Part shown: positions 15,227-32,494 of the stretch, one piece after another | Position numbering within the stretch: position 1 is the stretch's first letter | Layout: each line of letters opens with the position of its first letter | The notes under the pieces: generated by a model | The model's input: only the letters and a program-made list of their open reading frames with translations | The model's database searches: none | What the model was told of the DNA's origin: nothing | Made by a program: the position numbers and the translations under genes | Origin: Armatimonadota bacterium | GTDB lineage: Bacteria; Armatimonadota; Fimbriimonadia; Fimbriimonadales; Fimbriimonadaceae | DNA: 63,900 nucleotides | Assembly (NCBI GenBank): GCA_029781035.1 | Contig: JAKOXK010000027.1 | Span: 1 to 63,900, forward strand | Reading direction: 5' to 3'

Positions 15227-16159
15227 ATGGAACTGCACGTCGTTGACTCCCACACCGAGGGTGAACCGACACGGCTGGTCATCGACGGACTTCCCTCACT
15301 TGAAGGAGGAGTGAAGGAGCGGTTGGCCGAGCTGAGAGACGCGTACGACTGGATTCGGCGGACCATCTGCCTCGAGCCGAGAGGCAGCGAGGTCGCCATC
15401 GGGGCCGCACTTTTCCCGCCGAGTGTTGAGGACTGCCTGTACGATGTCGTCTTCATGAACAACACGGGCTATCTGGGCATGTGTGGCCACGGAACGATTG
15501 GCGTCATTGCCACCCTGGCCTGGCTGGGACGGATCCAGCCGGGCGAGCACAAGCTGAACACGGTCGCTGGAATCGTGAAGGCTCGGTTGCACGACGCCCA
15601 TACGGTCAGCTTCGAAAACGTGTTTTCCTATCGACTGGCCAAGGACGTGAGCATCAGCGTCCCAGGGCACGGCGTTGTCACTGGAGACGTCGCCTATGGG
15701 GGCAACTGGTTCTTCCTTGTCAAGTCGCCGCCAACAGAGGTCGTGGCTTCACGAATCCCCGAGCTTGAGGCGTTTACCAGCGCAGTGATGGACGCGCTCT
15801 GGGGTCAGGGCGTCACAGGCAAGGCTGGCGCGAAGATCGACCACATTGAAGTATTCGGTCCGCCGACGGTCACTGGTGCCGACTCCAAGAACTATGTGCT
15901 GTGTCCGGGCAAGCAGCACGACCGTTCGCCTTGCGGCACCGGTACAAGCGCCAAGCTCGCCTGCCTGTTCGCCGATGGGAAGCTAGCGGAGGGGGAAGTC
16001 CTGCGCCAAGAGAGCATCATTGGAAGCCTGTTCGAGGGTTCCGTAAGAGCTGCGGAGGGTGGAGTCTTCCCTACGATCAAAGGTCGGGCCTACGTCACGG
16101 GCGACTGTCGCCTGTTGTGCGACCAGGAAGACCCTTTCCGGCATGGGATCGGCGGGTAG
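15227..16159 (+). CDS. 4-hydroxyproline 2-epimerase / proline racemase family
   Basis: A 310-residue cofactor-independent epimerase. Both catalytic cysteines are present: Cys86 in GMCGHGTIG and Cys236 in RSPCGTGTSAK. This Cys/Cys pair fits racemases and 4-hydroxyproline 2-epimerases and excludes the related trans-3-hydroxyproline dehydratases, which have Thr at one position. The reaction would turn trans-4-hydroxy-L-proline into cis-4-hydroxy-D-proline. The adjacent DHDPS-family gene and convergent aldehyde dehydrogenase are the other known enzymes of this route, which favours the hydroxyproline role over proline racemisation. It starts 8 bp after the GT39-like gene. Confidence 0.88.
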   Translation: MELHVVDSHTEGEPTRLVIDGLPSLEGGVKERLAELRDAYDWIRRTICLEPRGSEVAIGAALFPPSVEDCLYDVVFMNNTGYLGMCGHGTIGVIATLAWLGRIQPGEHKLNTVAGIVKARLHDAHTVSFENVFSYRLAKDVSISVPGHGVVTGDVAYGGNWFFLVKSPPTEVVASRIPELEAFTSAVMDALWGQGVTGKAGAKIDHIEVFGPPTVTGADSKNYVLCPGKQHDRSPCGTGTSAKLACLFADGKLAEGEVLRQESIIGSLFEGSVRAAEGGVFPTIKGRAYVTGDCRLLCDQEDPFRHGIGG

Positions 16160-16162
16160 AAA

Positions 16163-17080
16163 GTGGGCATGGAGATGACTTGGCGTGGCGTGATGCCCGC
16201 CATTACGACCCCCTTCACTGACACGGGATCCGTCGATCATGAGTTCCTCGGACGACACGCGTCCTGGATGATCGAACAGGGGTGCACGGGTCTGGTGGCT
16301 CTGGGTTCATTGGGTGAGGGTGCGACCCTGACGAGCGAGGAAAAACGGGATGTCCTCACGACCTGTGTGTCGGCAGTCGGTTCACGTGTGCCTGTGGTGG
16401 CTGGAATCTCAGCTCTTGGGACAGAAGAGGCCGTCGCCCTATCCCGCGACGCCGAGTCATTGGGGTGTGTTGGCCTCATGGTACTGCCCCCCTATGTCTA
16501 CAAGGGCACATGGGACGAGATGAGGTCTCACTTCTCGGCCGTGATGAACGCGACCGACCTCTCCTGCATGCTGTACAACAATCCCGTCGCCTACGGCACC
16601 GACGTCTACCCTGACCAAGTGGTGGAGTTGGCGGACATGCACAAGAACCTCCATGCCGTCAAGGAGTCCAGCACGGATGTACGCCGGATCTCCGGGATTC
16701 GAGCGCTGACCGGGGACCGGCTCGCGCTCTTCGTAGGTGTGGACGACGCGATCTATGAGGGGATCGCCGTCGGAGCGGTTGGCTGGATCGCTGGACTTGT
16801 GAATGCGTTCCCCAAGGAGTCTGTGGCACTTTATGACCGATGCATGGCAGGCGACTGGGTAGGGGCGTTTGACATCTACCGCTGGTTCCTGCCCTTGCTC
16901 CGGCTCGACACGGTCGCCAAGTTCGTCCAGTTGATCAAACTGGCCCAGCAAGAGGCGGGAATGGGAAGCGAGCGAGTGCGGGCACCGCGCATGGCCCTCG
17001 TCGGACGTGAACGCGAAGACGCCCTTGACGTCATCCGTCATGGAATGAAGCACCGACCAGCTCTCTGCATCAAGGGTTGA
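16163..17080 (+). CDS. DHDPS-family lyase, probably 1-pyrroline-4-hydroxy-2-carboxylate deaminase
   Basis: A 305-residue member of the DapA/N-acetylneuraminate lyase superfamily with the Schiff-base Lys at about 167 (HAVKESS) and the catalytic Tyr at about 138 (LYNNP), both numbered from the GTG. In hydroxyproline catabolism a paralogue of DapA converts 1-pyrroline-4-hydroxy-2-carboxylate to 2-oxoglutarate semialdehyde plus ammonia; the neighbours make that the likely job. Start is ambiguous: GTG 16163, ATG 16169 or ATG 16175. The gene follows the epimerase by 3 bp. Its 3' end overlaps the convergent aldehyde dehydrogenase by 11 bp. Confidence 0.85.
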   Translation: MGMEMTWRGVMPAITTPFTDTGSVDHEFLGRHASWMIEQGCTGLVALGSLGEGATLTSEEKRDVLTTCVSAVGSRVPVVAGISALGTEEAVALSRDAESLGCVGLMVLPPYVYKGTWDEMRSHFSAVMNATDLSCMLYNNPVAYGTDVYPDQVVELADMHKNLHAVKESSTDVRRISGIRALTGDRLALFVGVDDAIYEGIAVGAVGWIAGLVNAFPKESVALYDRCMAGDWVGAFDIYRWFLPLLRLDTVAKFVQLIKLAQQEAGMGSERVRAPRMALVGREREDALDVIRHGMKHRPALCIKG

Positions 17081-18497
17081 TCTGGACCGTCTTCCACTCG
17101 GAGTAGAAGTCTTTTGCGACGGGGCCTTGTTCGCGCGTGCCTGAGCTTGACGCCTTCGTTCCACCAAAAGGTGCATGGGGGTCGACTCCAGTTGTATCGC
17201 CGTTGACTCTCACGAGCCCAGCCTCGATCCTGTCGACGAAGCGCATCGCCGATGAGATGTCTTGCGTGTAGACTGCGGTCGACAGACCAAACCGCGTAGC
17301 GTTTCCAATCTCCACCGCATGGTCAAGGTCTTCCGCTTCTAAGACGGCAAGGACGGGGCCGAACAACTCATCCTGGGCTAGGTCAGAGCCAGGGTCTACG
17401 CGGCCAAACACGGTCGGGGGAACGTAGTAACCTGGGCACGTGGCCCTTGACACGTGCTCGCGCTCGAATGGGGAGTTTTCGAGAGCCCGAGTGAGGCGAT
17501 GCTGGGCTGACTCCTCAATGACGGGTCCGACCGCGGTGGCGGGATCCGACGCAGGACCGACAGGAAGGGATTCGACGGCCTTGACAAGAACTGAAACAAA
17601 CTCGGTGTAGACTGCCTTTTCGACGATGACCCGACTGGTCGCCGTGCACTTCTGCCCTGCGAAACGCATGGCGCCTGCGGCCACCAAGCCTGCAGCCCGC
17701 GGAAGGTCAGCGTCTTTCAGCACAATGGCGGCGTTCTTCCCGCCCATCTCCGTCTGGCACTTGACGTTTCTGGCCGCACTCACCTTTTGGATTATTGTGC
17801 CAACTTCAATTGAGCCCGTGAAGGAGACAGCCTTGACGCCGGGGTCCTCGATCAAAGCGGTTCCGACAGTTTCGCCGTCACCCTGAACGACGTTGAAGGC
17901 CCCGTCCGGCAGACCGATGGAGGTTTCAGCGAGCAGTTGTGCGCACCAAGGTGACTGCTCTGCTGGTTTGAAAACGACCGTGTTGCCCATCGCCAAGGCC
18001 GGTGCTGCCTTCCAGAGTGGTATTGCTAAAGGGAAGTTCCAGGGCGTGATGAGGGTGACCACACCGAGCGGCTGACGGAGCGAGTACTGAAGAGGACCGT
18101 CTGACAAAGCCGGGATAACCTCGCCGACACTTCTGACTGCGTCTCCGGCGAAATAGCGGAGGATCGCGATGCACCGGGAAACCTCTCCCCGAGCCTCGCC
18201 GAGTGGCTTGCCGACCTCACGAGCGATGGCTTGGGAAAGCTCTTCGTGCCGGTCTTGGATTCGGCTGGCCCACTGGTAGAGGGCGTCTGCCCGAGCCGGG
18301 CCGGACATATGCCTCCACGTTGGGAAAGCTTGGGAGGCGGCCTGGACTGCTTTGGCCGCATCCTCCTTGGCCCCTCTTGGGGCGAGGGCGACCACATCGG
18401 CGGGATCGGACGGATTGAGGGATGCGAAGGTGCCCGGCTCCCGGGACTCTACAAAGCTTGAACCAATGAACTGGGCGATTCGGACGGGATCGGACAT
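17070..18497 (-). CDS. Aldehyde dehydrogenase, probably 2-oxoglutarate semialdehyde dehydrogenase
   Basis: A 475-residue NAD(P)-dependent aldehyde dehydrogenase. The catalytic residues are Glu250 (in TEMGGKN) and Cys284 (GQKCTATSR); the PWNFPLAIP and FTGSIEVG nucleotide-binding blocks are intact. The family member that oxidises 2-oxoglutarate semialdehyde to 2-oxoglutarate is the last step of hydroxyproline breakdown, and the gene lies tail-to-tail with the two preceding steps. Succinate-semialdehyde or another aldehyde cannot be excluded. The oxidase/dehydrogenase that links the epimerase and the deaminase is missing from the window. Confidence 0.88.
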   Translation of the reverse strand: MSDPVRIAQFIGSSFVESREPGTFASLNPSDPADVVALAPRGAKEDAAKAVQAASQAFPTWRHMSGPARADALYQWASRIQDRHEELSQAIAREVGKPLGEARGEVSRCIAILRYFAGDAVRSVGEVIPALSDGPLQYSLRQPLGVVTLITPWNFPLAIPLWKAAPALAMGNTVVFKPAEQSPWCAQLLAETSIGLPDGAFNVVQGDGETVGTALIEDPGVKAVSFTGSIEVGTIIQKVSAARNVKCQTEMGGKNAAIVLKDADLPRAAGLVAAGAMRFAGQKCTATSRVIVEKAVYTEFVSVLVKAVESLPVGPASDPATAVGPVIEESAQHRLTRALENSPFEREHVSRATCPGYYVPPTVFGRVDPGSDLAQDELFGPVLAVLEAEDLDHAVEIGNATRFGLSTAVYTQDISSAMRFVDRIEAGLVRVNGDTTGVDPHAPFGGTKASSSGTREQGPVAKDFYSEWKTVQINP

Positions 18498-18650: not shown

Positions 18651-20159
18651 ATGAAAGGCAAGCTCCCAGAGAACTTCTACAACCCAATATCGATCGTCGG
18701 CATAAGCCTCACGGTGGTCGCATTTGGCCTCATCGTGTTCTTGTTCATCCTCGACCGTTTCTCAAGCCAGTCGAACCCCTACATGGGGTTGATCACGTTC
18801 GTGGCTCTGCCTGCGGTGATCCTCTTCGGATTCGCTTTGGCCTTTTTCGGACTGTGGCGTACGGCGAGAAAGGTCAAGAAAGGGCTGCCTATCAACCGTA
18901 GCCTGCGGGTCGACTTGGCCAATCCCAAGCACCGCACTGCCTTCTTGATGTTCGTCAACGGCGGCCTGTTCTTCGTGGCCATTTCCGCGTTCGGCACGTA
19001 CAAAGCTTACGAGTACACCGAGTCCGTGCAATTCTGCGGCAAGGTCTGCCACAACGTTATGAAGCCTGAGTACACCGCGTACCAGAACTCGCCTCACGCC
19101 CGCGTTCCCTGTACTGGATGCCACATCGGCAATGGCGCGACTTGGTGGGTGAGGTCGAAGATCTCGGGCGCGTACCAGGTGTATTCGGTCCTGTTCAACA
19201 AGTACGACCGGCCGATCCCGACACCCGTAAAGAATCTGCGTCCTGCGAAAGAGACGTGCGAAGAGTGCCACTGGCCGAGCCACTTCTACAGTGAAAAGCT
19301 TGTGGATCACACGTACTATCTGTCCGATGAGGCCAATACGAAGTTCAACATCAGCATGCTCGTCAAGATCGGTGGATCTGATCATGGGGCGATGCAGGGC
19401 ATCCATGCCCACATGTACCTCGACAAGCAGATCAGCTACATTTCAACAGACCGTCAGAGACAGGTCATTCCCTACGTCGAAGCGCGTGGCAAAGATGGCA
19501 AAGTCGAGGTCTACCAAAGCATGGAGTCCCCGCTGACTGACGACCAGAGGAAGACCGGAGAGAAAAGGGTGGTCGATTGTATCGACTGCCACAACCGGCC
19601 CTCCCACCAGTACAAACACCCCGAGTTCAGTGTCAACATGGCGATGACGAACGGGGCCATCGACCCAACGCTCCCTGAGATCAAGATGGAGGCGGTCGAA
19701 GTGCTCGAGAAGCCCTATAAGACCGAGGGAGAGGCGCTGTCAAGCATTCAGTCAGGCGTCCAGAAGTTCTACAAAGAGTCACATCCGGACGTTTTCGAGA
19801 AACGGAGCAAAGATCTCGCTGTGGCGATTGCGCAGATCCAGGCGATCTACTCTCAGAACTACTTCCCTGAAATGAACGTCAGCTGGAAGGCCTACCCGAA
19901 CAACCTAGACCACATGCATTCGGCCGGTTGTTTCCGTTGCCACGACGGAAAGCACGTCAGCAAGTCTGGAAAGGTGATTAGCCGAGACTGTCAGACGTGC
20001 CACACCATCCTCTCGGAAGTGGACACCGAAGGCAAGCGGGAAACTTCATTGACCGGCGTCGAGTTCAAACATCCTGTAGACATCGGCGACGCATGGAAGG
20101 AACAGTTGTGCAAGGACTGTCACGGCAAACAGGAAGAGGAGCCCGCACCAGGTAAGTAG
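18651..20159 (+). CDS. Membrane-anchored heptaheme NapC/NirT-type cytochrome c
   Basis: A 502-residue quinol-oxidising-type cytochrome. Three hydrophobic helices (about 12-34, 45-68 and 97-115) precede the heme domain. Heme sites in order: CGKVCH (129-134, a CX3CH form), CTGCH (154-158), CEECH, CIDCH, CFRCH, CQTCH and CKDCH; seven in all. The first two with the NVMKPEYTAYQNSPHARVPC spacing match NapC/NirT/NrfH proteins that pass electrons from menaquinol to periplasmic acceptors. A strong terminator follows at 20182-20226. The convergent cytochrome/FeS/NrfD operon downstream suggests a shared respiratory function. The terminal acceptor is not encoded here. Confidence 0.9.
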   Translation: MKGKLPENFYNPISIVGISLTVVAFGLIVFLFILDRFSSQSNPYMGLITFVALPAVILFGFALAFFGLWRTARKVKKGLPINRSLRVDLANPKHRTAFLMFVNGGLFFVAISAFGTYKAYEYTESVQFCGKVCHNVMKPEYTAYQNSPHARVPCTGCHIGNGATWWVRSKISGAYQVYSVLFNKYDRPIPTPVKNLRPAKETCEECHWPSHFYSEKLVDHTYYLSDEANTKFNISMLVKIGGSDHGAMQGIHAHMYLDKQISYISTDRQRQVIPYVEARGKDGKVEVYQSMESPLTDDQRKTGEKRVVDCIDCHNRPSHQYKHPEFSVNMAMTNGAIDPTLPEIKMEAVEVLEKPYKTEGEALSSIQSGVQKFYKESHPDVFEKRSKDLAVAIAQIQAIYSQNYFPEMNVSWKAYPNNLDHMHSAGCFRCHDGKHVSKSGKVISRDCQTCHTILSEVDTEGKRETSLTGVEFKHPVDIGDAWKEQLCKDCHGKQEEEPAPGK

Positions 20160-20181
20160 GGTGCCGGTCAAGACCTCCTGT

Positions 20182-20226
20182 CCGCCGCTCGATCCCTTGT
20201 TGGGCTCGAGCGGCGGATTGCTTTTT
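20182..20226 (+). terminator. Rho-independent terminator after the heptaheme cytochrome
   Basis: Perfect 11-bp inverted repeat (arms 20182-20192 and 20206-20216, 13-nt loop) followed within six bases by a run of five T (20222-20226). It starts 22 bp after the cytochrome stop codon and points in the same direction. Confidence 0.85.
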
Positions 20227-20356
20227 GAACCAGGCAGGCAGGAGTATCTGAGATCGCTTCCGCTGTTGACAATGTCTCAGGGAACCCGTTGCTTCTCGGG
20301 CGCGGGCGAGTGGCCAACAAGTCGGGCCCTGGTTCCTTCTGCTGGATCCGAACACA

Positions 20357-20391
20357 CGAAAAAGAAGCAGGGCTCTCGCCATTGAGAGCCC
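20357..20391 (-). terminator. Rho-independent terminator after the nrfD-like gene
   Basis: Inverted repeat with 8-bp arms (20370-20377 and 20384-20391, loop of six). On the minus strand it is followed by a T-rich CTGCTTCTTTTTC. It lies 30 bp past the stop of the NrfD-like gene and would end the cytochrome/FeS/NrfD transcript. The space between the two convergent terminators (20227-20356) shows no gene. Confidence 0.75.
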
Positions 20392-20420
20392 CGCATGGAG
20401 AGGACTTGAACTTATTCGTA

Positions 20421-21632
20421 CTAAACGGGTTGGGGATCTCCCTGACCAGCCTCGGGTTCAGCACCATGGGTGCCCCAAGGCGGGATGATCTTGACCAGCA
20501 CGAAGAGAATGATGATGGGGAGGATCAAGAGGAACAGTGAGGCCAGGATGCCTTCTTGTCCGATCATTTCCAACTTGTACGTGCTCAGCCCACGCAAGCT
20601 CTTTGAGAACAGCTGGCCGCCGATAACGACGTTCCAGCGCATGGCCAAGACTCCGAGCAACACCAGGAAGCCACTGATGGCGTAGAGCTTTGTCCGAACC
20701 GCTTCCGACGCCTTCGAGAGTTGAGTGTAGGCCAGCATGCCGAGAGGGAGAAGGCCCCCCAGGAAGAGCTGAAGACCGAAGATCGTGTAATAGAGATAGC
20801 CGGAGCTAAGAAGCCCCAGAACTTCGACCCATTCACCAGCTTCGTACAACCGGTGAACGATGTCGAGTCCTTCAAGGGTCAAGTCGAAGATCAGAGCGAA
20901 CATCAGGTAACGGCCAACGGCGTCCAGACACCCGATGTCCAAGACCTGCTTTCGGTACTTCGTGGTGATCAGATAGAACAGGAGAACGAGCGAAATGCCC
21001 GAGACGATCGCTGAGAGGAGGAAGATCACCGGCATCAGCACGCTTGACCACCACGGGTTGCTCTTGAGCGACCCGAAGATGAACCCCACATAGCCGTGGA
21101 GCAGCACGGCAGAGGGAATACCGATGATCGTGATGAACCGGCCCGCCTTGTCATCGAACTGGAGCGCCTTTTTCGAGACGTCCTTGAATCCCAAGGTGAG
21201 AGCGGTGTAGAAGCTCTTGACGATGCCTCTTGTCACTTCGGTCTTCTTGACAAGGTCAGCTCGAAAGTCGAACCAGATCTCGAGCAACAGGACGGCCATC
21301 AGGTACCAGAGGTAGACGAAGCCGAAGATCGCCATGGCCGAGCTCAAGTGGGGCGTCATCATGATCTCGATGGCCCTTTCAGGGTGTCCGAGATGGGTGA
21401 CAAGTGGAATCGGGGCGCAGATCAGGAAGGCCAATGCCGTCAGCAGGGCCAGTCGGTAGGTGGGGGCGACTTTCTTCGCGTCAAAGACCCTGACTAACGA
21501 AGCGAGAATGAACGCGCCCGCCACGAGTCCGGTCAGGTACGGGTACAGCACGATCAGGACGCTCCACTGGAGTTCCTTCTCGTTCGGAAAGACGTAGTTG
21601 CTGGACTGAGCGAGGAGTTGGAGGGGGAACAT
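20421..21632 (-). CDS. NrfD/PsrC-family membrane quinol oxidoreductase subunit
   Basis: A 403-residue polytopic protein with eight or more hydrophobic helices. The NrfD family (NrfD, PsrC, ActC) carries the quinone site and works with a four-cluster ferredoxin subunit and a cytochrome. Family features seen are PYLTGLVAGAFILASLVRV in the first helices, PLVTHLGHPERAIEIM, and the PHLSSAMAIFGFVYLWYL block. It follows the FeS gene by 4 bp in a three-gene operon, cytochrome then FeS then NrfD, the same order as NrfBCD. The catalytic reductase subunit is absent here. The C-terminus is a short Pro/Gly-rich tail. Confidence 0.9.
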   Translation of the reverse strand: MFPLQLLAQSSNYVFPNEKELQWSVLIVLYPYLTGLVAGAFILASLVRVFDAKKVAPTYRLALLTALAFLICAPIPLVTHLGHPERAIEIMMTPHLSSAMAIFGFVYLWYLMAVLLLEIWFDFRADLVKKTEVTRGIVKSFYTALTLGFKDVSKKALQFDDKAGRFITIIGIPSAVLLHGYVGFIFGSLKSNPWWSSVLMPVIFLLSAIVSGISLVLLFYLITTKYRKQVLDIGCLDAVGRYLMFALIFDLTLEGLDIVHRLYEAGEWVEVLGLLSSGYLYYTIFGLQLFLGGLLPLGMLAYTQLSKASEAVRTKLYAISGFLVLLGVLAMRWNVVIGGQLFSKSLRGLSTYKLEMIGQEGILASLFLLILPIIILFVLVKIIPPWGTHGAEPEAGQGDPQPV

Positions 21633-21636
21633 TGGG

Positions 21637-22422
21637 TCACACCACCTCCTTCGAGAGTCCCTTGTACTGGACTTTGGCGCCGGTCTTCAGGTGAGGTTTC
21701 ATAACGTTGGTGGCGTTTTCCCGAACGAACTTGGCGACAGGGCTCTCCTTGTCGGAGATGTCTCCGAATATCCGAGCTCCTGTCGGGCACACTTCGACGC
21801 AAGCAGGAACCTGCCCCTTCTTGATGCGATGATAACAGAGGGTGCATTTGTCAGCTGTCCGCTTCTTCTCGTTCCAGAACCGAGATCCGTACGGACAGGC
21901 TTGGATGCAATAGCGACAACCGACACACCAGTCGTAGTCGACCATGACGACTCCGTCGCTTGTTTCGAAGGTTGCTCCGACCGGGCACACCTGCGTGCAC
22001 GGTGAGTCGTCACAATGATTGCAGAGTTTCGGGACGAAGAACGCCCGTGTGACATTCTCGTCGGACACTTCGGGGAAGCCATGGATGCCACCATCTGGCG
22101 ATGAGATGTCGACAGAGCCGTCTTCTTTGATGACGTAGCGCTCGATCCACGTCCGAAAATGCCCTTCTGGCACGTCGTTTTCGACGGAGCAAGCCTGGAC
22201 GCAGGATCCACACCCGATACACTTCTCAATGTCGATGGCCATCGCGTACCAAGGCGATGCCGGGTATCCGGTCGCGGTGCGCTTCGTGGTCTTCTTAGCG
22301 ATCTTGGAAGTGACGTTGCTCCAGGCTGCGTAGCCCCCAGCGCCGACGCCGATCAGGATCACCGATTGCCCGATGGTCTTGAGCAGGTCACTGCGCGTGA
22401 TGAGTTTCTCGTTTTCTTCCAT
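21637..22422 (-). CDS. Four-cluster [4Fe-4S] ferredoxin subunit (NrfC/HybA-like)
   Basis: A 261-residue electron-transfer subunit. Cys motifs for four [4Fe-4S] clusters are visible: CIGCGSCVQAC (about residue 68), CNHCDDSPCTQVCP, CVGCRYCIQACP, and CTLCYHRIKKGQVPACVEVCP with its typical insertion. The N-terminus holds one hydrophobic segment (VILIGVGAGGYAAW, about 21-34) preceded by ITRSDLLK; it lacks the RR pair of a Tat signal, so export route is unclear and it may be an anchor. It follows the tetraheme cytochrome by 4 bp and precedes the NrfD-like gene, an NrfBCD-like quinol module. Confidence 0.92.
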   Translation of the reverse strand: MEENEKLITRSDLLKTIGQSVILIGVGAGGYAAWSNVTSKIAKKTTKRTATGYPASPWYAMAIDIEKCIGCGSCVQACSVENDVPEGHFRTWIERYVIKEDGSVDISSPDGGIHGFPEVSDENVTRAFFVPKLCNHCDDSPCTQVCPVGATFETSDGVVMVDYDWCVGCRYCIQACPYGSRFWNEKKRTADKCTLCYHRIKKGQVPACVEVCPTGARIFGDISDKESPVAKFVRENATNVMKPHLKTGAKVQYKGLSKEVV

Positions 22423-22426
22423 GTGT

Positions 22427-22861
22427 CTACTCGCTGGGGTGGATTTCGTGGCACTCCATGCAACGTTTTCCTGGGTTGTGCTGGTTGGGGTCGATCTGAG
22501 GGAACCAATCAGGCCGTCCTACCAGACGGGCGTGGCACCGCGTGCAGTCGGCTCGGGTCGATGGCACCTTGGGCTTGATGGTCTCGAAGTTCTGCGCATG
22601 GGCCAGGGCAGGCCCGTGACACGTCTCGCACCCGACCCCCTTCTGTACGTGAGGCGTCACTTTGAACTTGTCCTCATGGCACTCGGCACAAGCCTTTCGG
22701 CCCGCATGCGACATCGCTCTCGAAGCGATCATCTGCGGAGCTTGGATGCGGTGGAACCCATCTTCGCCAAACCCCTTGGGCACCGCTTGGCTCCGGACAC
22801 CAAGGAACAAGCAGATCACGACGAGGAACACAATTGCGATTCGAACAACCTGTGGAGCCAT
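22427..22861 (-). CDS. Tetraheme cytochrome c, NrfB-like position
   Basis: A 144-residue protein with an N-terminal hydrophobic signal or anchor (IAIVFLVVICLFLGV, about residues 8-22) and four heme motifs: CAECH, CETCH, CTRCH and CMECH, well spread from about residue 58 to 138. It is the first gene of the minus-strand cytochrome/FeS/NrfD operon, so it should take electrons from the FeS subunit in the periplasm. No enzyme gene follows. It may connect to the heptaheme cytochrome encoded convergently. Confidence 0.9.
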   Translation of the reverse strand: MAPQVVRIAIVFLVVICLFLGVRSQAVPKGFGEDGFHRIQAPQMIASRAMSHAGRKACAECHEDKFKVTPHVQKGVGCETCHGPALAHAQNFETIKPKVPSTRADCTRCHARLVGRPDWFPQIDPNQHNPGKRCMECHEIHPSE

Positions 22862-23041: not shown

Positions 23042-23081
23042 AAAAAAGAGACGGGCGTGGTGGTCGCACCACGCCCGTCTC
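23042..23081 (-). terminator. Strong terminator hairpin after the LolA-cytochrome gene
   Basis: Perfect 15-bp inverted repeat (arms 23048-23062 and 23067-23081, 4-nt loop). On the minus strand it is followed by six T (23047-23042). It lies 17 bp beyond the stop of the minus-strand gene at 23098-24021 and is the longest perfect hairpin I noticed in the window. Confidence 0.9.
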
Positions 23082-23097: not shown

Positions 23098-24021
23098 TCA
23101 GTCGCCTTTGGCGCCGTTCTTGATCCAATCGTATATGGTTTTCTGGTCGGCTTGGCTGAGCGGCGGTCGGTTACGGGGCATTTCAGGATTGGATCCGCTG
23201 ATGACCTCGTAGAGGTCGCTGCTGTCCGGGTCTCCAGCCTTGACGATCCTCTTCGTCAAGTTCGCATACGAAGACAGGTCTACGCCTCCTGACCGGCGGC
23301 CCGAACCGTGGCATGGCATGCAGTTCTTGTCGAAAATGGCCTGCACAGCCGCATACCCGGAGCCGGCATCGTTGGCTTGCTCGACCTTCTTCGCCCCGTC
23401 TGGAGCCGTGAAAGCGAACGTGGTGGCGTCCGGCCCGGACGTGCCGATGGACAGCTTGTCCGACGTTACGAGCCATTCCTTGTCACTTTGTTTGAGGTCG
23501 AAGCCGAAGGCATATCCCGTCTTGTTGTCGATGTAGAACGTGCCAGATCCTGGCTCGGGCTTCTCCCAGCTCGCAATCACCTCCACCACGTCATGGCCCT
23601 TGATCGTGCGGCTCCCGCCTGTCTTGGCGGTGGCGATGTCGTCGTAAGGGCGCTTGGCGAAGAATGTGGTCCATGCCCAAGTCGCCGGGCCCGAGACGTC
23701 TTTGAGCAGGGTCGCATCGTCCGCCGGCGTCACGGTGTAGCTGTTGGAGGCTTTCGTGTAGCGGTACACGTTGGTGCCGTCACAGAGCACGAACCCGTCG
23801 GCATTCTCGATCCTATAGAGGTTGGGTTTGCCAAAACTGAACGTCGCGGTCGACTGGGCACCAGGCAAAGCCTGGATCGTGACGGATCCGGACAGTGTCT
23901 TCGCGTCTTGCAGGAGCTTAGCTTGTTTGCTCAACTGTCCGGGCAACATGCGCTGCGCGGCCACGCACGCCAGAATTCCCACCGACACGACCGGTAGCAG
24001 GATCAAAGTTGAACGACTCAT
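23098..24021 (-). CDS. LolA/DUF2092-like domain fused to a cytochrome c domain
   Basis: A 307-residue secreted protein. After a signal sequence (STLILLPVVSVGILACVA, about residues 4-21) comes a region of about 190 residues that reads like the LolA/DUF2092 beta-sandwich (KTLSGSVTIQALPG, RIENADGFVLCDGTNVYRYT, GTFYIDNKTGYAFGFDL). From about residue 225 a single-heme cytochrome c domain follows: CMPCH, a VKAGDPDSSDLYEVI block, and NPEMP with the likely Met ligand, then a final DWIKNGAK helix, like the small planctomycete-type cytochromes. A longer frame goes past the ATG at 24021 but the extra residues look random. The fusion is uncommon and its function unknown. Confidence 0.82.
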   Translation of the reverse strand: MSRSTLILLPVVSVGILACVAAQRMLPGQLSKQAKLLQDAKTLSGSVTIQALPGAQSTATFSFGKPNLYRIENADGFVLCDGTNVYRYTKASNSYTVTPADDATLLKDVSGPATWAWTTFFAKRPYDDIATAKTGGSRTIKGHDVVEVIASWEKPEPGSGTFYIDNKTGYAFGFDLKQSDKEWLVTSDKLSIGTSGPDATTFAFTAPDGAKKVEQANDAGSGYAAVQAIFDKNCMPCHGSGRRSGGVDLSSYANLTKRIVKAGDPDSSDLYEVISGSNPEMPRNRPPLSQADQKTIYDWIKNGAKGD

Positions 24022-24073: not shown

Positions 24074-24757
24074 CTAGGTCCTGCTCTGACCTCGGTCGAG
24101 GACGGCCACTGCCGCGGCGGCACCGGGTATCTGGTCCAGCGTCCAGGCAGTCAGCCGGAGCGGCGTTCCAGCCGCCACGGAACTGGGAGACCGGGACTCG
24201 TAGATCCGACTGACGTCGTAAGCCTTGAGCGGACACCCCAGCCCGATCCCCGACGCTTTGGAACAAGCTTCCTTGAGGGTCCACATGGCGAAGAACGCTT
24301 GGATCCCGAACTCATGTACGGTGAGCGCTTCTTTGTCCGTGAAGTGGTCGGCCAGCAGCGCGGTGAAATCGAAGTCGTTGACCACTGTCTCAACGTCTAC
24401 TCCGATCGGGTCCGAACTCGAGACCGCGACAAGGACGTCTTCGCCCGACGACGACAGGTTGAACTCAATCGACCCATCGGGTAGGCAGGGCTTTCCGCGC
24501 CCGTCCTGGATCACATCGAGTGAGGCGGGGTCGGTGCCGATTGCTGACGACAACACTCGTCTCAGAAACGCCCGACGAACTATGAACCGCCTCTGCTCAA
24601 GGGCAGACCGATAACACTGGGCCTGAGCCGTCTCGGATGCGCTCAGGACACTCAGGTGGTCGGCCAGGCAGTCCGGGCGGTCGAGGCGTCCGTGCCAGAC
24701 GGTCACGCCGGGCGACTTCCACACCACTCGGGAACCGAAGGCATCGGTCCCTTTCAT
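24074..24757 (-). CDS. 4'-phosphopantetheinyl transferase, Sfp type
   Basis: A 227-residue enzyme that loads the phosphopantetheine arm from CoA onto a carrier protein Ser. The two signatures are GVDVE (119-123; Asp121 and Glu123 bind Mg) and WTLKEACSKASG (159-170; Trp, Lys and Glu). The ATG at 24757 shares one base with the synthetase stop (TGATG), so the two are translationally coupled. A longer frame starting at 24892 would overlap the synthetase and is not favoured. Its obvious substrate is the carrier domain (Ser562) of that synthetase. Confidence 0.92.
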   Translation of the reverse strand: MKGTDAFGSRVVWKSPGVTVWHGRLDRPDCLADHLSVLSASETAQAQCYRSALEQRRFIVRRAFLRRVLSSAIGTDPASLDVIQDGRGKPCLPDGSIEFNLSSSGEDVLVAVSSSDPIGVDVETVVNDFDFTALLADHFTDKEALTVHEFGIQAFFAMWTLKEACSKASGIGLGCPLKAYDVSRIYESRSPSSVAAGTPLRLTAWTLDQIPGAAAAVAVLDRGQSRT

Positions 24758-27700
24758 CAGTTCGAAGGGAGTTCGCCCGCACGAGCCTGGGCAGGCGAAC
24801 CTTCCCAGTAGGTGTGGGCAGGGATCGTCTCTCCCTTCATCACGAGGGACAAGTGACCAACGTGCGCGTCGCTCTTGAGTTCGGATTCGCACAGGATCAC
24901 CGAATAGTTACCGACGGTGCACCGGTCACCAATCCGGATGGGGCCGACCTTCATCACTCGGTCTTCAAACAGGTGTGCCTGCAGGGGGGCGTTCGCATTC
25001 ACGGCGACGTCGGCGCCGATGTGGATCAAGTCGGTCTCGGTCCAGTCTGTCGTGTTGATGAAAGCGCGCCTTCCGACTTTGGCTCCGAGCATTCTCATGA
25101 AGGCCGAGAGGTAGGGAGTCCCGACAAGAGTGCCGATGAACATGGGAACGCCAAAGTCGTGGAGCACTGCTGAGTGCGTCTCCGTCTTCCAGACGAACTG
25201 GCTCCAGAGAGGCTGGACTGTCGGCCGGTAGGTGCCGATCAGGATTGCCTTTGAGCCGCGGCAAAGAAGGGCAGCGACCCCGGCTCCCATTAGGTAGAGC
25301 AACGGGGAGCACAGAACCGCAAGTGAGAATGACGTCTCGTTCCAGATCGTGACAAAGCACTCGATCAACATCGAGGCGATGATCAAGAAGCACAAGCTTG
25401 GCAGAAAGCTTCGGATTCCCTCGTGGAGCAGACGCTCCGCGTAGAGCCGTCTACTGGGAAGGTACGTCCGCTTGACGTCGAACGAATCGACGACCTGCCG
25501 GCTTGGCATCTTGAATGGCGGCGAACCAAGCCACGCCTGCTCGTCCGCGTCACCGATCGTTGAGGTGGGAGGGCAGACCGAGAGTACTCCCAGCAGGAAC
25601 TCATCGGGAACGTGACAAGCTTGGGGCACGACCGAGTCGTTTCCCAAGAAGGAGCGGCGACCGACGGTCGTGCGTTCGAGGGTGATCTGGCCGTTCCGAC
25701 GGACGGGCCTACCGATGCTGACTTCGCTTGCCAAGAAGCTCTCCTCGCCCATTTCGACAAGGTCGTAGGGCATCCGTCTTGGCAAGGCGATCTCACACCG
25801 CGGGCCGCACTTCATCCCAAGGGCGATACACCAAGGCCGGGCGAAGAGTGAATCGTAGACGGGCACAATCACACTTGATTGGAGTTCCAAGTGCTTCTCG
25901 GCAAACCACTTGCGCAGCCAAGTCTTGCCGGGGAACGGATAGGTTCCTGGTTTCAGGCGACCCAGCACCGCCCACTTCACGACAACGGTCTGGACGCAAG
26001 CCATCACCAGAAGGCCGATGGCGAACACCGGTTCCCAAAGATAGAGGATCGGGTCTTCGGCCATGTTGTACAGCAAGAAGGTGACCGTTAGGAACGGTAT
26101 CGAGTCCAACACCATCAGGCCCGCGACACAGGCAGCTTGCACCCAAGCATAAAGGGCCAACCGCCCTGATGCAGGGGTCCGGCCAGGATCATATTCCGGT
26201 ATCAGCCGGTCTTTGGCACGCCGCGCCGGGCTACCCTCCCACTCCTCGCCCTCAGGAACGGTCACCCCTGACCCGACGCAGGTCAAGTCACGGAGCGAGA
26301 CGCCATCGTTGAGCACGGCACCCCCGCAGACGCCAGATCGGACGCCAATTGAGCAACCCTTGCCAACAACGACGGGCCGGATGATGAGTTCCCCCTGAGT
26401 AACTTCGGTCGCGTGGATCCAAGACGAGTTCTCGAAGCTGGTGTCATCACCCACCGTCACCATGTCGGGACAATCCACCTCGAGAGACTCGAAGGTCACG
26501 TTCTTGCCAATTCTGGCCCCGAGCATTCGGAGCACGATCCCGGCGAACGGTGTACCTGTCAGGAATGCCACGGGGACAGTGGCCAGCACATGCTGGACGA
26601 ACCACCAGCGAAGAAACGTGGTGCCCCAGAGCGGATACCGGCCTGGCTTGAATCGCCCGCCAACGATCCACTTGACCGCGATGGCCAGAAACAACATCAG
26701 TGGCACAGAGACGGCGTGCAACACGAAGGCCAGAACTAAGGCCTGAAAGTCAGTCAGCCCCTCATTCGAGTAATAGATCGCGGCGATGACGGGCCCAAGC
26801 CAAAAGACACCCTGGAAGCCAAAGAGAAACAGGATCCCGAGTGCTTGGACAACTTTGGCTTTGCGGTATCGGCCCGCATCGACGGATTTGAACTCGATCG
26901 TTTCGACTTGTGGCTTCTCCCGGCTGTCAAGAACGGCGGAAAAGCTGCGAACTGTCGGGTTCTCGTAAATCTCCACGACCGAGAGGTCGTGGTACCCGTG
27001 GTCAGACCTCAGCACGGAGATGAACTTGGATGCGAGCAGGGAATAGCCGCCCAAGTCACGAAAAAAGTCGTCGCTACACGAGATCTCGGTGTCCGGGAAC
27101 AAGCCCCTCCAGATCCCGAGGATCCAGCCTTCCGTCTCCGTTGAAGGCGGCAGTACATCGCGCTCAACCTTGATGGGCGCTCCATGCATCTCCTGGCAGC
27201 TCCTCCGGTCGACCTTGCCGCTTGCGAGAACCGGGATCCGATCCACTTCCTCGAGTACCTGCGGGATCATATAGGCTGGAAGCACTGCGCGAAGGCCGGC
27301 CAAGTAGTCAGCCACCTCCAAGGGCGCATCCTCCCTCAGGACCATCAGGGCGGCGAGGTGGTCTTCACGTCCGGGTTCGCTTCTGGGAACAACCACCACC
27401 GACTGGATGGCCGGGTGAGCACCCATATGGGCCTCGATCTCGGTCAGTTCGATCCGGTGCCCACGAATCTTGACCTGGGCGTCGATACGCCCGAGCCAAA
27501 CGAGGTTCCCGTCCTCGTCGATGCGGACGCGGTCCCCCGTCCGGTACAAGGTCCAGGGTTCGTTGCCTTCCTTCACAAAGGGGTCGGGCATGAACTTGCC
27601 TAGACTCAGGTCATCGCGACCCCAGTAGCCCCTCGAAACGCCAACCCCCGCGATGGCCAGTTCGCCCTCAGATCCCAAGGGAACAGGGTTAAGTTCTTCG

Positions 27701-28725
27701 TCCAATACGGTGCAGGTGTAACCCGGAAGGGGCCTTCCGATCGTGATGGGCTCTCCGGGCCGGCAGACACTGAACGTCGCACCGACAGTCGCCTCAGTCG
27801 GCCCGTACGTGTTCAGGATTTCGCGGTCCGGCTTCCACCACCTCTCCACCATGGTGGGAGGGCAGTACTCGGCTCCGAACAGGATGCGCCGAATACTGGG
27901 AACATCGTCATCGACCATGGAGAGGAGTGTCGGTGCGCAGGACACCACAGTCACTTGGTGTTCATCAAGGAACTCGCGCAGGTCGGGTCCTGAATGGACG
28001 TGCCTGCTTGAGGCCACCACCAGCGTCGCACCAACTAGGAACGTCGGCCAGACCTCCTCGTGATGCCCGTCCGAAGAGGGTGAGAAGCCTTGAAACACCC
28101 GGTCCTCATGCACGAGACGGATGCAGGTTTGCTGGTTGCCGTGCACGAAGTTGGCCAAGCCCGCGTGCGTAATGGGCACGCCTTTCGGACGCCCCGTCGA
28201 GCCTGACGTGAAGATGATATAGGCCAGCGAGAACGGGTCTAGACCGTCGAGAGGAAGCGGTTCGGTGGCATGCTGCGCGGCCTCCTGCCAGAGAGCTGTC
28301 GAAGGTACCGCAGGCACCATAGGTTCTCCCGCTTGGAGCCAATCGGGCTGGTCCGCCACCAGAAGAGATGGCGAAGAGTCCTCGAGGCACCCGATCACAC
28401 GGTCACGGGGTGATTCGGAATCGAGCGGAACGTAGGCTGCGCCGGACTTCAGGATGCCGATCAGGAGCAGGATAGTCTCCGGGCCCCTCGGAAGAACGAA
28501 TGCGACCCTATCGCCCGGTCCGATTCCCCTTGATCTGAGCGCCGAGGCTACTTGGTTCGTCCTTTCCTCAAGTTCGCGGTACGTCAGGGAAAAGCCCTGA
28601 CCGATGACAGCGAGCTTGTGGGGCGTTCCGGCTGCCCAGTGTTGGAGGGGGCTGAAGACGAATCCAGGGAAACCGCCTTCGAGTTCGGGAGACCCCACAA
28701 TTCCGGTGCGGGGTTCGACGGTCAC
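24757..28725 (-). CDS. Pls/PosA-family single-module non-ribosomal peptide synthetase
   Basis: A 1322-residue membrane synthetase. Order: adenylation domain about 20-515, with A3 (FTSGSTGRPKG, 172-182), A5 (NTYGPTE, 305-311), A7 (YRTGD, 394-398), A8 (GRIDAQVKIRGHRIE, 412-426) and Lys504. A carrier domain (about 530-605) has LGGYS with Ser562. Then come three pairs of hydrophobic helices (about 622-690, 855-920 and 1103-1157), each followed by a beta-helix/hexapeptide-type domain (about 725-840, 960-1075 and 1195-1315). The three domains are mutually similar. No condensation or thioesterase domain is seen. This is the layout of epsilon-poly-L-lysine synthetase (Pls). By eye the specificity code is D-G-E-S-L-G-T-V-G-K, close to a lysine code. 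The product is unproven. Confidence 0.88.
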   Translation of the reverse strand: MTVEPRTGIVGSPELEGGFPGFVFSPLQHWAAGTPHKLAVIGQGFSLTYRELEERTNQVASALRSRGIGPGDRVAFVLPRGPETILLLIGILKSGAAYVPLDSESPRDRVIGCLEDSSPSLLVADQPDWLQAGEPMVPAVPSTALWQEAAQHATEPLPLDGLDPFSLAYIIFTSGSTGRPKGVPITHAGLANFVHGNQQTCIRLVHEDRVFQGFSPSSDGHHEEVWPTFLVGATLVVASSRHVHSGPDLREFLDEHQVTVVSCAPTLLSMVDDDVPSIRRILFGAEYCPPTMVERWWKPDREILNTYGPTEATVGATFSVCRPGEPITIGRPLPGYTCTVLDEELNPVPLGSEGELAIAGVGVSRGYWGRDDLSLGKFMPDPFVKEGNEPWTLYRTGDRVRIDEDGNLVWLGRIDAQVKIRGHRIELTEIEAHMGAHPAIQSVVVVPRSEPGREDHLAALMVLREDAPLEVADYLAGLRAVLPAYMIPQVLEEVDRIPVLASGKVDRRSCQEMHGAPIKVERDVLPPSTETEGWILGIWRGLFPDTEISCSDDFFRDLGGYSLLASKFISVLRSDHGYHDLSVVEIYENPTVRSFSAVLDSREKPQVETIEFKSVDAGRYRKAKVVQALGILFLFGFQGVFWLGPVIAAIYYSNEGLTDFQALVLAFVLHAVSVPLMLFLAIAVKWIVGGRFKPGRYPLWGTTFLRWWFVQHVLATVPVAFLTGTPFAGIVLRMLGARIGKNVTFESLEVDCPDMVTVGDDTSFENSSWIHATEVTQGELIIRPVVVGKGCSIGVRSGVCGGAVLNDGVSLRDLTCVGSGVTVPEGEEWEGSPARRAKDRLIPEYDPGRTPASGRLALYAWVQAACVAGLMVLDSIPFLTVTFLLYNMAEDPILYLWEPVFAIGLLVMACVQTVVVKWAVLGRLKPGTYPFPGKTWLRKWFAEKHLELQSSVIVPVYDSLFARPWCIALGMKCGPRCEIALPRRMPYDLVEMGEESFLASEVSIGRPVRRNGQITLERTTVGRRSFLGNDSVVPQACHVPDEFLLGVLSVCPPTSTIGDADEQAWLGSPPFKMPSRQVVDSFDVKRTYLPSRRLYAERLLHEGIRSFLPSLCFLIIASMLIECFVTIWNETSFSLAVLCSPLLYLMGAGVAALLCRGSKAILIGTYRPTVQPLWSQFVWKTETHSAVLHDFGVPMFIGTLVGTPYLSAFMRMLGAKVGRRAFINTTDWTETDLIHIGADVAVNANAPLQAHLFEDRVMKVGPIRIGDRCTVGNYSVILCESELKSDAHVGHLSLVMKGETIPAHTYWEGSPAQARAGELPSN

Positions 28726-28943: not shown

Positions 28944-29795
28944 GTGGCGCCCGGTTCAAGGGCGGTACGGTCGTGGGCCACGCGAGTAGACTCGGATCCA
29001 GGAGGTGGAGCGATCAGCCTGCCCGCCCTTCTCAACCGACACCGATCTATCAGGAAGTTCAAAGCTGATCCCGTTGACTCGAAGCTCATCGATCGTGTCT
29101 GTGCGGATGCCGTGGCGGGAGCGTCGTCATCAGGCAACCTCAATAGCGTCTCGATCGTGCTGACTCAGGATCCGGAGAGAAAGTCACGGCTCTACGAGCT
29201 GCACATGGAGCAAGAGATGGTGCTCGAAGCACCGCTGGTGGTCACGTTCTGCGCTGATTGGTTCCGGACGCGCGAATGGCTCCGGCTGCGCCAGGCCAGG
29301 GACAATTTCAACAACCTTGTTGGATATCTGGTGGCCTCGTTCGACGCCATGATCCTCGCCCAAAACGTTTGCTTGGGTTTTGAATCGGAAGGGCTCGGCA
29401 TCTGCTACATGGGCACGACTCTGTACTCGATGCTCGACATCGCTGAGTTCCTTGAACTCCCCGACACCTGCCTTCCTGTCACGGCGATTGTGGTCGGCTA
29501 TCCTGACGAGGACCCCACCAAGAGAGACCGCCTGCCGATGGAGGCGCTCGTCCACCATGAGACTTACCACCGCCCTTCCGTCGCTGAGATCGAAGAGACA
29601 TACCGGCAGCGTGAAGTCAAGGGTTGGGAACGGTATATGGCGATTCCCGAGCTCAAGCGAATGAGTGAGGAGCGCGGCATCACTTCGTTGGCCCAGTTCT
29701 ACACGAGCGAGATCAAATACGATCCGGAAAGCTTCCGTGAGTTCTCCTTGCGCATTGAAGACGCACTCGTGACAAAGCACTTCCTTGAACGCTGA
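28944..29795 (+). CDS. Nitroreductase-family FMN oxidoreductase
   Basis: A protein of up to 283 residues from the nitroreductase superfamily (NfsA-like): the RHRSIRKF motif that binds FMN phosphate, SSGNLNSVSIVLTQDP, an AQNVCLGFESEGLGICYMGT block and VVGYPDEDP. The C-terminal half has an extra helical region ending YTSEIKYDPESFREFSL. The 28944 start is a GTG. The N-terminal 23 residues look unconserved, and a perfect AGGAGG (29000-29005) stands 7 nt before an in-frame ATC (29013), so the true start may be ATC29013. It is divergent from the synthetase gene; a shared role is not evident. Confidence 0.82.
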   Translation: MAPGSRAVRSWATRVDSDPGGGAISLPALLNRHRSIRKFKADPVDSKLIDRVCADAVAGASSSGNLNSVSIVLTQDPERKSRLYELHMEQEMVLEAPLVVTFCADWFRTREWLRLRQARDNFNNLVGYLVASFDAMILAQNVCLGFESEGLGICYMGTTLYSMLDIAEFLELPDTCLPVTAIVVGYPDEDPTKRDRLPMEALVHHETYHRPSVAEIEETYRQREVKGWERYMAIPELKRMSEERGITSLAQFYTSEIKYDPESFREFSLRIEDALVTKHFLER

Positions 29796-29848: not shown

Positions 29849-32494
29849 ATGTTCGTCCTGGCCATGGCAGGTGTCGCCTTGCTTTCGCCGTTGGCGCCCG
29901 CCCCTGTCTGCGTAGTTCCGCAAAGCGACTCACTTCAATTGAGCCGTGTTCTGGGCAAGACTCGGCCGCTTGTGTTCTGCGAGCCGTACGACCGGCCGAT
30001 CCGTCGGACCGAACCCTTCCAAACGTCCTGGATCGGTCAGGCTGGCAAGCCGCACCTGTCGGTCAGTGCGCGCCCTGGGCAGTTTCTCACGTTCCAAATT
30101 GCCGTTCTGGCGCGTACGGACATCCGGTCAGTGAAAGTCGTGTTCCGGAGTCTCCGAGGAGAATCGCAGGTTCTGCCTGGCACGCTTGCCCGATGCATCA
30201 GCTTGGGCGGTGTTGATAGCCGAGGCAACCGGTTTGTTAAATCACTGAGCGTGGGACGGGGCAGGCTGCAACCCCTTTGGTGCGGTTGGGACATCCCAAA
30301 AACCGCTCGGGGACGATACCGTGGAACGGCGTCACTCGAATTGTCTCCTGGCGTGAGAGAGCCGATCGCCCTAGACGTCATGGTGGAGGGACCCGTCGAT
30401 GAAGACGGTGGTGCCGACCGACCCGAAGCTTTGACGCGCCTTCGCTGGCTTGACTCGACCGTCGGCGAGCAGGGCGGGGTTACCCCACCCTATGTCCCGG
30501 TGACTGTCCGGGGCCGTACCGTCCATGTCCTGGGAAGAGACCTCGAATTGGGCACCAACGGCCTGCCGAGTTCCATTGTCAGCCACTTCTCGTCCGCAAA
30601 CACACGTATCGTTGGGTCGGGCCAGGAGGTCTTGTCCGGCCCGATCCAGTTCCTCGTCTCAGAACGGGGGCGAGTACAGCCGTTGCGGGCTCAGCTGGCC
30701 AGGATTCGCCACCAGTCTGTCGAGGCCACATGGAAGTCGATCGGGCATGCTGGCGCCTTTCAGGCGGAAGTCACGGGAAAACTGGACTACACGGGTTCGG
30801 GGCAGCTGTCCATCAAGCTTCGGGCCACACGCGATTTGGATCTCACCGACGCCAGGCTGGAGATCCCATTCAGGCCCGAGTCTGCTTTGTACTCGATGGG
30901 GCTCAACCGGCAAGGTGGCCTCCGACCACCGAGTCAGAGTTGGAAGTGGGATGTTTCGCGTCATCAAGACTGCTTCTGGATCGGAAGCCTGAACCGCGGC
31001 CTGATGATCCGTCTCAAAGACGAGAACTACCGCCGCCCCTTGCTCAACATCTACTACGCGTTCAGGCCCCTGCTCATGCCCGACTCATGGGGCAACGGGG
31101 GCAAGGGAGGGGTGACCGTGAACGACGTCAGTGGCACGGTTCTCGCAAGGGCCTATTGCGGCCCGAGAGCGGTCAAAAAGGGGCAAGTCCTCAGTTTCCT
31201 CGTCGACTTCTATGTCACGCCGTTTCGGACGATCGACACAGACAAGCAATGGAGAACCCGGATCGTCCATCCGCATCCGAGCCGGAGTCCGGACCCCATT
31301 GAATCAGCACTCCAAGCCGCCAACGCCGATGTCGGCCCCAACATGATCGACGTTCATCAGGCGACCTACTTCGATCCCTACATAAACTATCCCTACAGCC
31401 CTGACTCCTTCGACGCCCTGGTTGGGCTGTCCAAGAGGGCGCACGCGAAACACGTTCGGCTCAGGGTGTATTACACGACTCGAGAGATCACGCAGAACAT
31501 GCCCGAGCTGTTTGCCTTGCACTCTCTCAACGGCGAGGTCGTCTTCCCAGGGCCTGGAAAGGACGCCAAGACGCTGATCAACCCCAATGGCCCCGATCCC
31601 TGGCTCGTCCAGAACCTCGGTTCGGACTTCATCCCAGCCTGGGTCGATCATGTGGGCGGGAAGTACGCGCAAGACGACATCTCTGTGATCACAGCTCCCG
31701 ACTCGCGGTGGAACAACTTCTATCTCGAAGGCCTGCGATGGATGGTCAAGAAGGCTCAGATCGACGGGGTCTACATCGACGACACGGCGCTCGATGCACG
31801 GAGCTTGCGCCGGGCTCGGCGGATCCTCAGCGCACGGGCAGACCCGTTCATTGATCTCCACAGTTGGAACCACTTCAACCAATACGCGGGATACGCCAAC
31901 AACCTCAACCTCTATATGGAGGTGCTGCCTTATCTGGACAGACTCTGGCTCGGTGAGGGGTTCAGCGCAAACGATGCGCCTTGGGATTACTGGCTTGTCG
32001 AAATGTCTGGCCTCCCGTTCGGCCTGATGAGCGAAATGCTTGACAGTCCGAACGTCTACAGAGGTCTTGTTTTCGGTGAGACAGGGCGCCTGGGTTGGTC
32101 AGGAGATCCTAGACCGGAATGGAAGCTCTTTGACCAAGCGGGACTCCTGGGAACAGAGATGATCCCGTTCGCAAGCCACGATTGCCCCGTTCGTACGAGC
32201 GACAGCCGTGTCTTGGCAACGGTATACCGGGGCAAAGGACGTGCGCTCGTCGCAATCGCCAGTTGGGCCGATCAACCGGTTCATGTGAAACTTTCCATCG
32301 ACTGGAGCCAGTTGGCTCTTGCGCCAGAAAGAGCGAGAGCGTTTGCGCCCGAGATATCCGGACTCCAATCCGCGGGCGACTTCGATGTCCGCCAGACCTT
32401 GGAGATCGCGCCGAAGTCCGGGTACGTGTTCGTTGTGAGAGATTCGGGAGAGCAGAAGTCGACGCCTGTCGGCCACCGAGGAACTGCACCATGA
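29849..32494 (+). CDS. Secreted glycoside-hydrolase-like protein (DUF6067/GH123-like)
   Basis: An 881-residue secreted protein (signal FVLAMAGVALLSPLAPA at the N-terminus). Residues 40-480 look like beta-sandwich modules; residues about 480-800 read as a (beta/alpha)-barrel: the VHQATYFDPYINYPYSPDSF block, KHVRLRVYYTTREITQNMP, then WMVKKAQIDGVYIDDTAL, with an acidic DD pair typical of glycosidase strand ends, and DLHSWNHFNQYAGYANNL. A small beta domain closes the protein. The pattern recalls DUF6067/GH123-like proteins, from memory. It overlaps the next gene by 4 bp (ATGA). Substrate unknown. Confidence 0.6.
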   Translation: MFVLAMAGVALLSPLAPAPVCVVPQSDSLQLSRVLGKTRPLVFCEPYDRPIRRTEPFQTSWIGQAGKPHLSVSARPGQFLTFQIAVLARTDIRSVKVVFRSLRGESQVLPGTLARCISLGGVDSRGNRFVKSLSVGRGRLQPLWCGWDIPKTARGRYRGTASLELSPGVREPIALDVMVEGPVDEDGGADRPEALTRLRWLDSTVGEQGGVTPPYVPVTVRGRTVHVLGRDLELGTNGLPSSIVSHFSSANTRIVGSGQEVLSGPIQFLVSERGRVQPLRAQLARIRHQSVEATWKSIGHAGAFQAEVTGKLDYTGSGQLSIKLRATRDLDLTDARLEIPFRPESALYSMGLNRQGGLRPPSQSWKWDVSRHQDCFWIGSLNRGLMIRLKDENYRRPLLNIYYAFRPLLMPDSWGNGGKGGVTVNDVSGTVLARAYCGPRAVKKGQVLSFLVDFYVTPFRTIDTDKQWRTRIVHPHPSRSPDPIESALQAANADVGPNMIDVHQATYFDPYINYPYSPDSFDALVGLSKRAHAKHVRLRVYYTTREITQNMPELFALHSLNGEVVFPGPGKDAKTLINPNGPDPWLVQNLGSDFIPAWVDHVGGKYAQDDISVITAPDSRWNNFYLEGLRWMVKKAQIDGVYIDDTALDARSLRRARRILSARADPFIDLHSWNHFNQYAGYANNLNLYMEVLPYLDRLWLGEGFSANDAPWDYWLVEMSGLPFGLMSEMLDSPNVYRGLVFGETGRLGWSGDPRPEWKLFDQAGLLGTEMIPFASHDCPVRTSDSRVLATVYRGKGRALVAIASWADQPVHVKLSIDWSQLALAPERARAFAPEISGLQSAGDFDVRQTLEIAPKSGYVFVVRDSGEQKSTPVGHRGTAP

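Follow-up and report, generated by a model that had tools for sequence, protein, structure and literature searches.

A phylum-restricted Pls/PosA-family synthetase from Armatimonadota with an adjoining phosphopantetheinyl transferase and a probable cationic isopeptide product

The Pls/PosA-family enzymes characterised so far belong to actinomycetes, Acinetobacter and some fungi, and the products of the family include food preservatives and antimicrobial candidates. In PosA of A. baumannii, a delta-poly-ornithine synthetase, the pocket residues Asp217 and Glu221 are essential and Thr304 supports binding (PMC10522769). The residue at pocket position 2 is thought to set the chain length of the monomer, with Phe for Dap/Dab, Met for Orn and Ala for Lys, and Gly occupies this position in an epsilon-poly-beta-lysine synthetase with the code DGESISVVNK (PMC10522769).

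The window analysed here is a 63,900-nucleotide stretch of DNA from a bacterium of Armatimonadota, a little-studied phylum (contig JAKOXK010000027.1). It encodes a synthetase that is a new, phylum-restricted branch of this known family, together with a phosphopantetheinyl transferase (PPTase).

Gene pair, domain architecture and neighbourhood

The NRPS-like synthetase gene (24757-28725, reverse strand) encodes 1322 residues and was identified with TIGR02353, Pfam and two AlphaFold2 models. It starts with GTG, preceded a few bases upstream by GGAG, and its stop codon shares one base with the ATG of the 227-residue 4'-phosphopantetheinyl transferase (24074-24757, reverse strand; identified by PF01648, motifs and the junction). 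The junction reads TGATG, and both gene positions and the one-base overlap reported in a first-pass annotation of the locus are confirmed.

TIGR02353 matches residues 625-1312 over its full profile length (1-695) at 556.6 bits, against a cut-off of 423.1 (NCBIfam). Pfam detects AMP-binding (1e-80), AMP-binding_C, PP-binding and weak hexapeptide repeats in the synthetase, and no condensation or thioesterase domain. The adenylation domain covers residues ~20-515 (27181-28668, reverse strand), as placed by MAFFT alignment to PosA, HMMER alignment to PDB entries 8g95/8g97 and 7wew, and AlphaFold2, and is followed by a carrier (PCP) domain at residues ~535-598 (26932-27123, reverse strand; PF00550 at 534-598). 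The terminal polymerisation region defined by TIGR02353 (24790-26853, reverse strand) was delimited from domain coordinates, hydropathy, the model and a fold search.

Structure prediction gives a consistent picture of these parts. The adenylation domain model has a pLDDT of 91.6 and matches PosA (8g95-8g98) with Z ~49-50 over ~385 residues, while the model of residues 528-1322, built from 51 sequences, reaches a pLDDT of 92.9 and a pTM of 0.92. AlphaFold2 predicts three helix pairs (residues ~617-654/659-689, 853-888/892-921 and 1092-1130/1133-1162), and after each comes a run of short repeated strands of the kind seen in left-handed beta-helices; the model and hydropathy concur on six transmembrane helices arranged as three pairs. 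Hexapeptide acyltransferases and gamma carbonic anhydrases are the best solved-structure matches of this model, and the fold search matched no solved structure covering the whole terminal region. The published model of PosA agrees with this helix-pair/beta-helix layout (PMC10522769). The order read from the DNA at first pass, adenylation, carrier, then three helix pairs each with a beta-helix, thus holds by TIGR02353, Pfam and the AlphaFold2 structure model. The synthetase firmly belongs to the Pls/PosA family with the architecture A-T-C1-C2-C3; its profile scores, together with 52-63% identity to six proteins of other Armatimonadota genomes, exclude a chance match.

The sequence elements expected of a working enzyme are intact. 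Core motifs A3, A5, A7, A8 and A10 are all present, and the phosphopantetheine serine, Ser562 in LGGYSLLA, is invariant among 113 aligned proteins. Conservation across the same 113 proteins also singles out the stretch Q1249-x-H1251-x-x-E1254-D1255-R1256-x-x-K1259 in the third beta-helix unit (24946-24981, reverse strand), in which His1251 is invariant and its neighbours are at least 95% conserved. This conservation and the acyltransferase fold make the 1249-1259 stretch a candidate condensation site.

The PPTase scores 38.1 bits against PF01648 (ACPS), above the cut-off of 25, and its motifs IGVDVE and WTLKEACSKA contain the IGVD and W-x-x-KEA signatures. The window genome holds two other PF01648 matches, both in shorter frames (151 and 164 residues), so the 227-residue enzyme is probably dedicated to the adjoining synthetase. 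Six of the clade members described below have readable downstream DNA. In four of them (the window, G012, G133 and G143) a PPTase is adjacent to the synthetase, and in G103 and G104 it is not; G087 was left out of this count because its contig ends. Across the wider family, about 30 of 113 homologue loci have a PPTase next or close to the synthetase, and these range from alphaproteobacteria to archaea and include Sphingomonas, Rhizobium, Bacteroidales and Planctomycetota. The coupling is therefore a recurrent family trait, and its reading as a special feature of this locus was rejected.

A third gene on the same strand (23098-24021) begins 52 bases past the PPTase and encodes a c-type cytochrome domain (PSCyt1) preceded by a larger N-terminal part; no counterpart adjoins the synthetase in other clade members. 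On its 3' side, a consensus scan alone marks a strong terminator-like hairpin of 15 pairs followed by six T (23048-23081, reverse strand), which is the likely transcript end. Upstream, a nitroreductase-family gene (28944-29795, forward strand) diverges from the synthetase, and a copy with 74% identity is found upstream of the G143 synthetase (locus L057), where it has the opposite orientation. It is followed in the window by a gene for a large protein (29849-32494, forward strand) that matches the GH123 N-terminal domain family over almost its full length at 786 bits. Further away, adjoining proline racemase family, DHDPS family and aldehyde dehydrogenase genes (15227-18497) look like a set for hydroxyproline breakdown, and the genes at 18651-22861, for a NapC/NirT-NrfH-like multihaem cytochrome, NrfD, a TtrB/DsrO-like iron-sulphur protein and cytochrome c7, are a respiratory electron-transfer module. 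Three genes found 3' of the synthetase in loci L052/L053 also occur in L057 and do not adjoin the window gene. The PPTase is the sole neighbour that recurs within the clade.

The adenylation pocket and its clade

Alignment with MAFFT places the ten code residues of the window protein, Asp219, Gly220, Glu223, Ser262, Leu282, Gly284, Thr306, Val314, Gly315 and Lys504 (DGESLGTVGK), on Asp217, Met218, Glu221, His260, Asn280, Gly282, Thr304, Val312, Ser313 and Lys502 of A. baumannii PosA (DMEHNGTVSK). HMMER alignments to 8g95/8g97 (PosA) and to 7wew (S. albulus Pls) span the first nine of these positions and agree at every one, and all ten pocket positions picked by eye in the first-pass annotation proved right. 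S. albulus Pls reads DAESIGTVV in 7wew, with Lys at position 10 taken from L040, a closely related Streptomyces Pls, in the alignment.

Asp-1, Glu-3, Thr-7 and Lys-10 of the window protein coincide with PosA Asp217, Glu221, Thr304 and Lys502, and Asp-1, Glu-3 and Lys-10 support a pocket suited to a basic side chain. The code is identical to Pls DAESIGTVVK at 7 of 10 positions, and up to 7 of 10 are also shared with some Dap/Dab-type codes, so that counting letters of the ten-position code barely discriminates between substrates. Over 34 wider pocket positions, Pls types have a mean identity of 20.5 (at most 23/34), followed by Dap/Dab (19.6), DL (18.2), PosA-like (17.6) and the DSECYGGVTK type (14.4). 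The Ala-2 reported for lysine-polymerising members is absent, and Gly takes its place in the window protein and in all clade members; it likewise replaces the Met-2 of PosA. With Gly at both positions 2 and 9, where Pls has Ala and Val, the pocket is probably roomier than that of Pls. The description of this code as lysine-like therefore stands for the basic side chain and the 7/10 match to Pls, but not for lysine itself, given Gly-2 and the equal match to some Dap/Dab codes. The lysine code cited in support of it, D-A-E-S-I-G-S-V, is a real lysine signature but belongs to bacitracin synthetase BacB-M1 (PMC3207962), whereas Pls reads DAESIGTVV.

The same ten letters occur in six more Armatimonadota genomes, in the proteins that are 51-62% identical to the window protein, and are absent from the other aligned homologues, which come from many phyla. 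The most distinctive feature is one that the ten-letter code misses: the stretch S-D-G-H-H-E-E at residues 218-224 (28054-28074, reverse strand), located by alignment and a DNA pattern scan. It is invariant within the clade, replaces the F (or Y)-D-x-S (or A)-hydrophobic-E of other aligned homologues, and is absent from all of these, including every one retrieved from other phyla. Of 291 Armatimonadota genomes, seven contain the corresponding DNA pattern, and these are the seven that carry the window-type synthetase. A literature text search for DGESLG and SDGHHEE, which excluded the Supplementary Table 2 codes of PMC10522769, returned nothing relevant.

Pls/PosA-family matches are present in 24 of the 291 Armatimonadota genomes, and the window genome has one such gene. 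Other synthetase types in the phylum carry the codes DAESIGTVIK and DSECYGGVTK; the latter appears in eleven Armatimonadota proteins (L060-L071) and coexists with the window type in G103 and G104. A Bdellovibrionales adenylation domain with the code DSECYGGVTK activated arginine and none of four known diamino acids (PMC10522769).

The window clade has a support of 100 in every tree. In the adenylation-domain tree it is separate from the Pls-type group, and in the C-terminal trees it is again a separate clade, with deeper joins that shift with model and sampling. One C-terminal tree places it with PosA-like and DL groups, and a mixture model with fewer rows places it outside both; the grouping with PosA was accordingly not used. 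None of the three congeneric genomes searched has the gene, and the window protein clusters in the C-terminal trees with members from another family of Armatimonadota, which together suggest transfer inside the phylum or repeated loss.

Monomer identity and proposed mechanism

By analogy with characterised relatives, the product class is probably a cationic isopeptide, as had been expected from the DNA at first pass, an expectation that the present results support. On balance, we favour the reading that the synthetase and PPTase make a cationic isopeptide homopolymer whose monomer is most likely L-lysine. Monomer identity is the weakest step of this explanation: L-lysine is plausibly placed first, with ornithine and a larger diamino acid next. 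The 34-position signatures nearest to the window are those of Pls types, by a slight lead, which counts for lysine. Additionally, DGEDHGTV is the code of a predicted L-Lys module in P. syringae pyoverdine synthesis that agrees with the structure inferred by MS/MS (PMC3207962), and PMC12283262 gives DGEDHGTVVK as a Lys signature. Against lysine, positions 2 and 9 are Gly where Pls has Ala and Val, the Orn signature DGEDHGTVTK differs from that Lys signature by one letter (PMC12283262), the adenylation domain branches on its own, away from the Pls-type group, and S-D-G-H-H-E-E is found in this clade only. Arginine was lowered as a candidate, since the pattern of Arg domains, Asp-4 and Ala-7 (PMC12283262), does not fit the window code.

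A larger or modified diamino acid, new to this polymer family, is a genuine if clearly minor possibility, with Gly-2, Gly-9 and S-D-G-H-H-E-E giving it space. To the same limited degree, the clade marked by DGESLGTVGK and S-D-G-H-H-E-E may select a family-new monomer, larger than lysine or differently substituted, and make a new isopeptide polymer. Two pocket residues are reduced to Gly, F-D-x-S is replaced in every clade member, and the pocket letters are fixed although the proteins have diverged so far from the window protein; moreover, the DSECYGGVTK relative, with Ser-2, took arginine and rejected the known diamino acids (PMC10522769). However, Gly-2 together with G-T-V at positions 6-8 is also seen in Lys and Orn signatures of the ordinary kind, both His of the motif, judged by PheA geometry, probably point away from the pocket on the far side of the helix, and nothing adjoining the window synthetase was recognised as a gene for an unusual diamino acid.

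An L-ornithine monomer, which would make the enzyme a delta-poly-ornithine synthetase like PosA, is unlikely. It draws on the single C-terminal tree that joins the clade to the PosA-like and DL groups (support 98) and on DGEDHGTVTK as an Orn signature (PMC12283262), but the PosA-like grouping is gone under the mixture model with fewer rows. The Met-2 of PosA, absent here, limits substrate length, and its M218A variant leaves Orn activation about unchanged and raises Lys activation about tenfold (PMC10522769). PosA Ser313, which binds the delta-amine, is also replaced by Gly in the window protein.

Epsilon-poly-beta-lysine, the product of the Streptoalloteichus enzyme DGESISVVNK, is a very improbable alternative. 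Both codes share D-G-E-S at positions 1-4, including Gly-2 (PMC10522769), but positions 6, 7 and 9 are G/T/G in the window against S/V/N. The first-pass annotation took Asp-1 to indicate an alpha-amino acid, which is unsafe, because the poly-beta-lysine code also starts with Asp (PMC10522769). The better argument against beta-lysine is genomic: lysine-2,3-aminomutase (TIGR00238) has no match in the window genome (96% complete) or its six sisters, while control genomes are positive, and beta-lysine was rejected as the leading reading on the strength of these seven genomes. It is hardly credible that the synthetase is a remnant or no longer polymerises, for although its distribution is patchy and the congeners searched lack it, its full-length frame, retained core motifs and polymerisation-region residues, tight PPTase coupling and long-term conservation in the clade argue otherwise.

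With L-lysine as the preferred monomer, a mechanism can be proposed in which enzymatic activity and the isopeptide linkage, like the condensation site, are modelled on characterised relatives. The PPTase would attach phosphopantetheine to Ser562 of the carrier, and the adenylation domain would adenylate the diamino acid, most likely L-lysine, and load it onto the carrier. In the pocket, the alpha-amine of the bound diamino acid would be held by Asp219 and its side-chain amine by Glu223. The membrane-anchored triple beta-helix region would then couple monomers repeatedly, side-chain amine to carboxylate, and the outcome would be an isopeptide oligomer at the membrane. The Armatimonadota branch, with its fixed pocket and its own PPTase, lends itself to heterologous expression as a compact target of two genes, and would put the proposed position-2 rule for chain length (Phe, Met, Ala, then Gly) to the test.

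Comparison with known systems

The epsilon-poly-beta-lysine synthetase of Streptoalloteichus hindustanus resembles the window protein in Gly-2 and in the D-G-E-S start of its code (PMC10522769). The remainder of the code is I-S-V-V-N-K, against L-G-T-V-G-K in the window, so that the whole codes are identical at 6 of 10 positions, and a lysine-2,3-aminomutase gene adjoins the S. hindustanus enzyme whereas none was found in the window genome. The Armatimonadota DSECYGGVTK paralogues share phylum and family with the window protein, yet they are 28-33% identical to it and have another pocket and a more distant terminal region.

S. albulus Pls (7wew) shares the family, the domain order and the triple transmembrane/beta-helix terminal region, as well as Asp-1, Glu-3, Ser-4, Gly-6, Thr-7, Val-8 and Lys-10 of the pocket. 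It differs in Ala-2, Ile-5 and Val-9, which are Gly, Leu and Gly in the window protein, and in the motif F-D-A-S-C-E-E, which corresponds to S-D-G-H-H-E-E. Identity between the window protein and Streptomyces Pls L040 is 32%, and in the L040 locus the gene that comes after pls encodes a metallopeptidase and no PPTase, in contrast to the window. PosA of A. baumannii (8g95-8g98) is likewise similar in family, architecture and the Asp/Glu/Thr/Lys of its pocket, but its code is DMEHNGTVSK rather than DGESLGTVGK and overall identity is 34%. Unlike posA, which forms a single-gene operon (PMC10522769), the window synthetase is coupled to a PPTase gene.
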